Of a stretch of DNA of 32,647 bases, positions 3,024 through 32,438 are shown piece after piece. Origin of the DNA: Candidatus Haladaptatiplasma halalkaliphilum. GTDB lineage: Archaea; Thermoplasmatota; Thermoplasmata; Halarchaeoplasmatales; Halarchaeoplasmataceae. The notes beneath the pieces are model-generated. The model was given only the letters and a program-made list of their open reading frames with translations. It was not told the origin of the DNA and did no database searches. Position numbers and translations under genes: made by a program. How positions within the stretch are numbered: position 1 is the first letter of the stretch; each line of letters starts with the position of its first letter. Location of the stretch: the NCBI GenBank assembly GCA_019594055.1, contig JAFDTY010000013.1, forward strand, positions 1-32,647, in the 5' to 3' direction.

Positions 3024-3452
3024 TCACTTTCCGCACCCCCCACGCAAAGAATAGATTTTTTCGTATTCTTCACCCATTAGAGCAAGAATCTTTTCATGTA
3101 CTGGCTTGAGATTCAACACTTGTTGAGATACTGTACCACCGTCGGTGACGTTGAGTAACGATTTGTTCTCGAACTTCTGGAAGATCCATCTCATCGTAGG
3201 ATTTTTAGTTGGTTTACCCAGTTGGTCGAGAACGGTCTCATCCATCTCTGCCAGAGCATTCCTTAGCTTGCGTTGGGCAATGGCGTATACCAACAGGCTC
3301 AATCCCATGACCATCACGAGGCGGACTATACGTTGAGGTTTCTTCAGAAAAGTTGAGTTTGTGAAGAACATCGGGTCCTTGATGAACCTGAACCCCCGTT
3401 CGACGCTCTGCTGCTGTTTGTATTCTCTCAAGATAACTTCCTGATCCAGATG
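3024..3452 (-). pseudogene. IS1634-family transposase, C-terminal remnant
   Basis: The frame reads DQEVILREYKQQQSVERGF, then FIKDPMFFTNSTFLKKPQRI and VMVMGLSLLVYAIAQRKL. This is the conserved C-terminal block of IS1634-type (IS4 superfamily, DDE) transposases, which are common in archaea. Only about 140 residues remain: an in-frame TGA (complement of 3453-3455) closes the frame just upstream of DQEV, and the N-terminal catalytic part is absent. No start codon suits it, and no terminal inverted repeats were seen. The 115 bases between it and the preceding ATPase gene hold only short, broken minus-strand frames (for example DEELNRCVERLFDIL before a stop), perhaps further decay products. It lies directly beside a palindrome cluster and two tRNA genes. 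Confidence 0.8.
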
Positions 3453-3485: not shown

Positions 3486-3751
3486 CCCTCTTCGAGGGAG
3501 AGATGGAGGGAATCTTGATTTCTGCTCACCGTTCATCAGTCAGAACAAGTTCTAACAACTCACAAAACAAGTTTTGTTTGCTCCGCTCACTATAGACTGG
3601 TGGATCGTAGTGATTTCCGAGAAATCGCTACGAGAAGAGGAGCTTTGCTCCTGTGGAATTCTTGCTTTAAAACGGACCCATGGGGATTCCGGTCGCAATC
3701 TACGGATTCCAACCGCTCGCAAAAACAAGTTTTGCTCACGAACCAAGGTTC
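3486..3751 (-). repeat. Cluster of short palindromes (hairpins) 3' of tRNA-Arg
   Basis: At least seven perfect or near-perfect inverted repeats are packed here: 3486-3498 (CCCTC/GAGGG), 3542-3553 (AGAA/TTCT), 3562-3577 (ACAAAA/TTTTGT), 3606-3632 (12-bp stem with one G-U, loop CGA), 3638-3652 (AGGAGC/GCTCCT), 3719-3735 (GCAAAA/TTTTGC) and 3740-3751 (GAAC/GTTC). Read on the minus strand, which is the sense strand of the neighbouring tRNA-Arg, three have exactly CTTG as the loop and the 3719-3735 hairpin has CTTG plus one base. No convincing protein is encoded. Origin and function are unknown. Confidence 0.75.
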
Positions 3752-3783
3752 TCATCACCATGTAAACGGACCCATGGGGATTC
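3670..3783 (-). repeat. Direct repeat of the tRNA-Arg 3' end (3670-3689 and 3764-3783)
   Basis: The 20-base string AAACGGACCCATGGGGATTC (plus strand) occurs at 3764-3783, where it is the 3' end of tRNA-Arg plus three flanking bases, and again identically at 3670-3689. The offset is 94 bases. The interval contains two of the CTTG-loop hairpins. A duplicated tRNA 3' end is what site-specific integration into a tRNA gene leaves behind (attL/attR), but the interval is far too short for an integrative element and encodes no integrase. Confidence 0.85.
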
Positions 3784-3840
3784 GAACCCCAGTTTTCGGC
3801 TCCGAAGGCCGAAAGGATATCCAGACTACCCTATGGGCCC
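3767..3840 (-). tRNA. tRNA-Arg (anticodon TCG)
   Basis: Cloverleaf read on the minus strand. The acceptor GGGCCCA pairs with TGGGTCC (one G-T), with discriminator G. The D arm is GGGT/ATCC. The anticodon stem TCGGC/GCCGA encloses loop CTTCGGA, giving anticodon TCG. The T arm is TGGGG-TTCGAAT-CCCCA. There is no intron and no encoded CCA. It reads CGA and possibly other CGN arginine codons. Its 3' end is duplicated 94 bases further downstream. Confidence 0.93.
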
Positions 3841-3925: not shown

Positions 3926-3998
3926 TAGCCCCGGGCGGATTCGAACCGCCGTTACAAGGTCCAGAGCCATGTATGATTGACCACTACACTACGGGGCT
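3926..3998 (-). tRNA. tRNA-Gln (anticodon CTG)
   Basis: Cloverleaf on the minus strand. The acceptor AGCCCCG pairs with CGGGGCT, with discriminator A. The anticodon loop CTCTGGA gives CTG (glutamine, CAG codons). The T arm is GGCGG-TTCGAAT-CCGCC. The anticodon stem CATGG/CCTTG contains a central T-T mismatch, and the D stem is weak (GTG/CAT). There is no encoded CCA. Its first 11 bases are repeated twice more upstream (see the repeat at 3988-4134). Confidence 0.88.
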
Positions 3999-4134
3999 TT
4001 TGTGTAACAAAACCCCCGAGTATTTGGAATTTTTTCCAAATTCCGAAACACTACGGGGCTTGAGCGTATGCGAGAGTTCCGTAGGAACGGGAATGTGTTC
4101 CCGTGGACTACGGGGCTTTTATGTAACAAAACCC
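3988..4134 (-). repeat. Duplicated tRNA-Gln 5' end with intervening palindromes
   Basis: The 28 bases at 3988-4015 (first 11 bases of tRNA-Gln plus 17 bases of 5' flank) recur at 4107-4134 with one mismatch. A shorter middle copy (14 bases identical to 3986-3999) is at 4048-4061. Between them lie palindromes at 4023-4040 (TTTGGAA/TTCCAAA), 4076-4088 (GTTCC/GGAAC) and 4088-4103 (CGGGAA/TTCCCG). The flank itself folds as TTTTGT-GTA-ACAAAA (3998-4012). The likely original promoter lies beyond the outermost copy. Confidence 0.85.
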
Positions 4135-32123: not shown

Positions 32124-32245
32124 CCCGACTTAGCTCAGACTGGCTAGAGCGGGTGACTGTAGTTGAAACCTACTGGGTAGGAACCCACACCCGCCCCACA
32201 GCAGAAATCATCAGGTCCCCGGTTCAAATCCGGGAGTCGGGACCA
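32124..32245 (+). tRNA. tRNA-Tyr (anticodon GTA) with intron
   Basis: Acceptor CCCGACT pairs with AGTCGGG; discriminator A, and CCA is encoded (32243-32245), unlike the other tRNAs here. The C1:G72 pair is the archaeal/eukaryotic tyrosine identity. The anticodon stem GGTGA/TCATC and loop with GTA at 32159-32161 are interrupted by a 44-base intron after position 37. The T arm is CCCGG-TTCAAAT-CCGGG. U33-G34-U35 fits the recognition sequence of the bacterial-type TGT encoded in this window. The 3' end is duplicated 157 bases downstream. Confidence 0.96.
32163..32206 (+). other. tRNA-Tyr intron (44 nt, position 37/38) with bulge-helix-bulge
   Basis: The exon boundaries form the archaeal splicing-endonuclease motif. 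CTGT (32157-32160) pairs with GCAG (32201-32204). The three-base bulges AG/T (32161-32163) and AA/A (32205-32207) are each cut after the second base. The intron has an internal hairpin CCTAC/GTAGG (32169-32181), but the inner BHB helix is weak (two pairs). No protein is encoded. Confidence 0.88.
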
Positions 32246-32438
32246 TCCTTATTCCATCAGCTTGAGCTTTATCTCCGGTTCATGAGTAAAATTTGATAAA
32301 ATTTTACGAGTTGTTAGAATCTCTTGATTCTGGTTCATGAACCAATCTATGATTGGTGAGCGTAGGGAACTTGTTCCCTACAGAATCCGGGAGTCGGGAC
32401 CATCCTTATTCTTTCAGCTTGAGCTACTTAACCGGTTC
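32227..32438 (+). repeat. Duplicated tRNA-Tyr 3' end with palindrome cluster
   Basis: The block 32227-32268 (last 16 bases of tRNA-Tyr, CCA and 23 bases of flank) recurs at 32384-32425 with two mismatches; weaker similarity continues to 32281/32438. The offset is 157 bases. Between the copies are five inverted repeats: 32286-32307 (GTAAAATTT/AAATTTTAC), 32316-32331 (AGAATC/GATTCT), 32332-32343 (GGTTCATGAACC), 32342-32356 (CCAATC/GATTGG) and 32362-32381 (GTAGGGAA-CTTG-TTCCCTAC). No protein is encoded. It is reminiscent of the tRNA-3'-end repeats known after E. coli tyrT, but the sequence is unrelated as far as I can see. Confidence 0.88.

Follow-up and report, generated by a model that had tools for sequence, protein, structure and literature searches.

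The window analysed here, 32,647 nucleotides long, spans an entire contig (G000:C23) from a draft genome of 1.8 Mb. It carries an intron-bearing tRNA-Tyr gene, not detected by ARAGORN in bacterial mode, with a genomic CCA directly after it at 32243-32245 (Table 1). We found that 42 bases of the tRNA-Tyr 3' end and its trailer recur 157 bases downstream with two mismatches (32227-32268 against 32384-32425), which a sequence-only reading had reported; extended, the direct repeat spans 55 nt with an 87% match. The spacer had also been described as nearly all inverted repeats, and it does fold beyond shuffled sequences (z -4.6 as DNA and -4.1 as RNA, with 0 of 200 shuffles equal in each case). Five palindromes had been counted in it. 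The hairpins are real, but they resolve into two double-hairpin (DH) modules, A and B, plus the palindrome GGTTCATGAACC at the point where the modules meet. Nor are they a free-form set of hairpins: the spacer is a conserved DH module that interrupts a partial tRNA copy between T-loop nucleotides 57 and 58, exactly where the copied tRNA-Tyr T-arm is split.

Table 1. Features of the tRNA-Tyr locus and of the other units in the window.
Feature	Position	Strand	Basis
tRNA-Tyr, intron-bearing, functional copy	32124..32242	+	Rfam RF00005 49.3 bits; sequence
Proximal direct-repeat copy: tRNA-Tyr 3' end from T-loop A58, CCA, trailer of ~20 bases	32227..32268	+	Sequence comparison
T-arm 5' half copy, CTCCGGTTCA, last base R57	32273..32282	+	Sequence comparison
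DH module A: TGA, hp1 32286-32307, GAG, hp2 ~32313-32333; degenerate	32283..32333	+	Covariance model R1 E=0.007; inverted repeats
DH module B: TGA, hp1 32341-32357, GAGC, hp2 32362-32381, AG	32338..32383	+	Covariance model R1 59.6 bits, E=3.4e-11
Distal copy: T-arm 3' half from A58, acceptor 3' strand, CCA, trailer	32384..32425	+	Sequence comparison
tRNA-Arg, second tRNA of the window with a 3' unit	3767..3840	-	tRNA gene search; Rfam search
DH module downstream of tRNA-Arg, between GGTTCG and AATCC	3689..3740	-	Covariance model R1; junction alignment
Exact 16-nt tRNA-Arg 3'-end copy, AATCCCCATGGGTCCG	3673..3688	-	Sequence comparison
Two 5' units upstream of tRNA-Gln (3926-3998): its 5'-end copies (-62, -119), each with a simple hairpin	4010..4120	-	tRNA-end copy search
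DH module within the CCACCAGTC...GACTGGTGG repeat	3536..3582	-	Covariance model R1

Within the window, only two 250-bp bins (32250 and 4000) hold at least two stems of at least 7 bp, and both are at tRNA genes. An IS1634-family transposase fragment at 3024-3431 (minus strand) adjoins the DH module of the CCACCAGTC...GACTGGTGG repeat. IS1634, with its long variable direct repeats (PMC2266710), was considered as a candidate and rejected, as no link to DH modules elsewhere was found.

A tRNA-end direct repeat also follows the insertion of tRNA-integrating archaeal elements of the SSV and pNOB8 type, and it flanks the tRNA-Tyr spacer as it does for SSV1 (PMC3293823). However, DH units measure about 100-160 bp and have neither integrase nor genes. 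At tRNA-Tyr just ~115 bp of non-coding DNA lie between the repeats, and no integrase-bearing element is present there. The copied end is in every unit that of its own tRNA and not a single shared att, units also stand at 5' ends, the same module occurs at many tRNAs, and the viral contigs searched gave no match and no viral carrier. It is thus very improbable that the units are att-site scars or mini-integrative elements of tyrosine integrases targeting tRNA 3' ends.

The double-hairpin module and its place in tRNA-end copies

Comparison of units showed that the DH module is YGA-hp1-GAGC-hp2-NRG, about 47 bp in length, with stems that vary with compensation and joints that are conserved. In an unbiased tally of 117 hairpins in tRNA-unit loci, GA...GA flanks were the most frequent (20 versus 5 for the runner-up). 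The covariance model R1 yielded 90 distinct modules in the loci examined. In these modules, 97% of cells are paired and both-side changes occur in 298 cells versus 85 in shuffles, where pairing itself is partly circular since the sequences were found via their hairpins; the signal was lost when partners were slid. The GAGC joint and a T.G wobble in hp2 were no selection criterion when the modules were first picked, and the wobble is present in 56 of the 90 modules and reversed in only 4. The module has no terminal inverted repeats. An Rfam search of the units gave no known RNA family above the curated cut-off. On our reading of the alignments, we rejected a K-turn at GA-hp1-GA, where outer stem pairing is inconsistent, and a box C/D sRNA, whose boxes are not conserved.

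The position of the module is precise. The arrangement GGTTC-R-[YGA...NRG]-AATCC, or one near it, was found in 20 of 21 sense-oriented 3' units, which places the DH module exactly between T-loop nucleotides 57 and 58. The unit's R57 equals position 57 of its own tRNA in 20/20 cases (11 G, 9 A). A reverse-complemented T-arm stands ahead of many units and thereby places the module inside a T-arm palindrome. Units are also located at tRNA 5' ends and outside tRNAs, with the module in either orientation; at the 3' ends of tRNA-Ser, -Val and -Ala it runs opposite to the tRNA, and the copies at tRNA-Val 5' ends are divided beside position 7/8 (CTAGACTA-DH-TGAGCCC). At one locus (L083, G000:C43), three 5'-end copies at -214, -141 and -68 upstream of the tRNA form a 73-bp tandem array.

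In E. coli tyrT, a single locus known for rtT RNA, tandem units downstream of the tRNA each contain a copy of the tRNA 3' end. Tandem downstream units restarting with the tRNA 3' end are likewise seen at DH loci, so the likeness drawn in the sequence-only reading is apt; by contrast, DH elements occur at many tRNAs, at both 5' and 3' ends, and in a T-loop split by the module. The units might work as RNAs that are produced together with the tRNA, in the manner of rtT RNA: a read-through transcript would fold in a cloverleaf-like manner (P1 GGGAT/ATCCC, hp0 GAACC/GGTTC, hp1, hp2) and be released by tRNA 3' processing. The strong covariation, the conserved G.U wobble, a closed multi-branch fold in several units and the conservation of units across genera are consistent with such RNAs. 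But units are absent from some species of the same genus, and the module is found both ways round relative to the tRNA, also at 5' ends and in non-tRNA repeats, which makes this explanation unlikely. Since the DH strand is marked by the T.G wobble and yet lies in both orientations to the tRNA, mobility at the DNA level is a better fit than a segment of the tRNA transcript.

Recurrence across tRNAs and genomes

The sequence-only reading had taken the block for an element rather than a one-off, and this was borne out: further spacers and tRNA-end copies were both found at other tRNAs, in this genome as well as in relatives, and some orthologous sites are empty. Units are present at tRNA-Gly, -Ser, -Val, -Ala, -Arg, -Glu, -Asp and others, each with its own tRNA's end. 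Tandem amplification is visible at tRNA-Tyr of the relatives, which have three near-identical 104-bp tandem units (G014), two (G005), one (G012) or one with two DH modules (G007).

Copies of tRNA ends were found at 11 of 25 tRNAs in G000 (one of these cases being a neighbouring tRNA) and at 7 of 22 in G005. The combined 18/47, with that neighbouring tRNA among the 18, compares with 0/23 for three other genomes of the class taken as controls (Fisher P 3e-4). An early survey of the best-scoring tRNAs only gave a weak contrast (6/30 versus 3/30 in controls), with all three control cases in G036. This fourth control, from a third family, has copies of its own tRNA ends with hairpins unrelated to DH (L222, L228, L236). 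Given G036, the copying of tRNA ends may be wider than the DH module.

Among 300 genomes searched, R1 matched all 16 of the host family and 1 of the 284 other class genomes (G024, from another family). The DH family is thus widespread in this family of salt-lake archaea in the Thermoplasmatota, whose named members include Ca. Halarchaeoplasma. This recurrence in 16/16 family genomes and at many tRNAs refutes a local one-off duplication, for which nothing speaks beyond the single tRNA-Tyr locus; we give it practically no chance. The named records with the motif include Ca. Halarchaeoplasma halalkaliphilum and Thermoplasmata MAGs, with soda-lake sediments and the Great Salt Lake as presumed sources. 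A short-pattern search also matched four records of unrelated bacteria, probably by chance. In G024, massive hairpin arrays are located at tRNA-Gln and tRNA-Thr (L188, L189), and one 3' unit has a different hairpin in its T-arm copy.

DH modules show a clear preference for tRNAs: of 81 modules in six genomes, 51 have a listed tRNA no more than 400 bp away, where 1.0 would be expected, and many of those away from listed tRNAs are at contig ends bearing tRNA-end copies. All genomes are draft MAGs whose contigs are broken by these repeats, and unit arrays probably break assemblies and are undercounted. The contig ends of G000, G002 and G005 hold many tRNAs and units.

Occupied sites and the proposed mobility

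Within one genus, the tRNA-Tyr locus is empty in two species (G008 and G013), while a further two (G003 and G011) have different units there. A second target is the TATAGT...ACTATA hairpin repeat, of which copies with and without a DH insert coexist in G005, and likewise in G000. The coexistence of both forms in one genome indicates that DH is a discrete insertion. In copies of the G005/G014 type, the insert measures 47 bp, with the 6-bp direct repeat TTGCGT on either side. No other observation speaks as cleanly for a discrete insertion, although deletion between repeats would give the same picture. The target-site duplication is not constant, being 6 bp in this target and not visible in T-loops. 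Excision from occupied sites may account for the pattern of occupied and empty sites. At tRNA-Ser, among others, orthologous units are shared between genera, a persistence that hints at age or function. The TATAGT...ACTATA repeat, itself a double hairpin of ~97 bp, is scattered through the family and carries inserts of DH as well as of other hairpins (L251-L255, L144, L150, L152-L154).

Replication fold-back or template switching at hairpin-rich tRNA ends may explain the tRNA-end copies. As a full account, repeatedly making quasi-palindromes and partial tRNA copies with no dedicated element, it would fit the T-arm reverse-complement copies ahead of many units, the 5'-end units with simple hairpins and no DH, and the unrelated hairpins at tRNA-end copies of other families. 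However, the same conserved module is found in unrelated places, it forms a clean 47-bp insertion in the repeat, and its T.G wobble is conserved where arm-copying would erase it. We therefore regard this account as distinctly improbable.

REP and REPIN sequences with RAYT transposases are very short, palindromic, strand-polar paired hairpins with non-autonomous spread (PMC3733652, PMC3116915), and REP dimers are also found inside palindromes (PMC3733652). DH elements are likewise short, palindromic and strand-polar, and lie inside palindromic targets (T-arm palindromes, the hairpin repeat). In contrast, they lack the GTAG/CGTC tag, their foot being YGA before hp1 and GAGC before hp2; they have no consistent RAYT, tRNA ends are their main site, and the host tRNA end is copied. 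Mitochondrial double-hairpin, or repetitive hairpin-forming, elements are mobile too and consist of one hairpin or two, with stems that vary (PMC2800124). They are organellar and are not known to copy tRNA ends, whereas DH elements are archaeal and have tRNA-end copies. Unlike the MITE of a DDE insertion sequence, DH has neither terminal inverted repeats nor a constant target-site duplication. A search of the open-access literature gave no report of DH elements at tRNA ends, and the family is apparently undescribed so far.

Taken together, we favour, with a probability of roughly 0.6, miniature non-coding DH elements that insert into hairpin-forming DNA, chiefly at tRNA ends, are moved as folded single-stranded DNA by a putative enzyme, and are accompanied by a tRNA-end copy made by fold-back or duplication. 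The element is probably mobile. It would insert its ~47 bp into hairpin-forming DNA, with tRNA gene ends as the main home. There the module divides a partial 3'-end copy of the same tRNA between T-loop positions 57 and 58, or a partial 5'-end copy near the 7/8 boundary. Since DH lies in a partial copy, the real tRNA is left intact. Units are afterwards amplified in tandem. REP-type elements are thought to move as folded single-stranded DNA, and a putative enzyme may move DH in this form. The tRNA-end copy would arise at the T-arm before or during insertion, with fold-back copying there as our preferred guess over duplication.

Few sites receive mobile DNA as often as tRNA genes do, and in the cases known an integrase acts at one fixed site. 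In contrast, the sub-50-bp module is found in the T-loop of copies from a wide range of tRNAs, and each time the end is that of the tRNA in question. This would allow hairpin-targeted insertion, the origin of tRNA-end repeats and the disruption of archaeal tRNA genes to be studied in a compact natural system. On a bolder and less likely reading, DH could represent a mobile element of a new class, one that would recognise the T-arm as folded (hairpin) DNA and would in every case bear a copy of the end of the tRNA gene it occupies, so that any tRNA could be colonised without being killed.

No mobilising enzyme and no consistent transposase were found among the family genomes. A reverse-transcriptase origin, with a stop at m1A58, was rejected because 15 of the 16 family genomes have no reverse transcriptase, the one present is degenerate, and 5' units do not fit. 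IS200-type transposases are patchy in the family. IS200/Y1 was rejected as a universal mobiliser, since a DH-adjacent Y1 is full-length only in G002 and other Y1 loci have no DH. A single IS200-type transposase gene (G002:C6:642-1417, L157) is located between DH modules, and the two modules that flank it have the same orientation.
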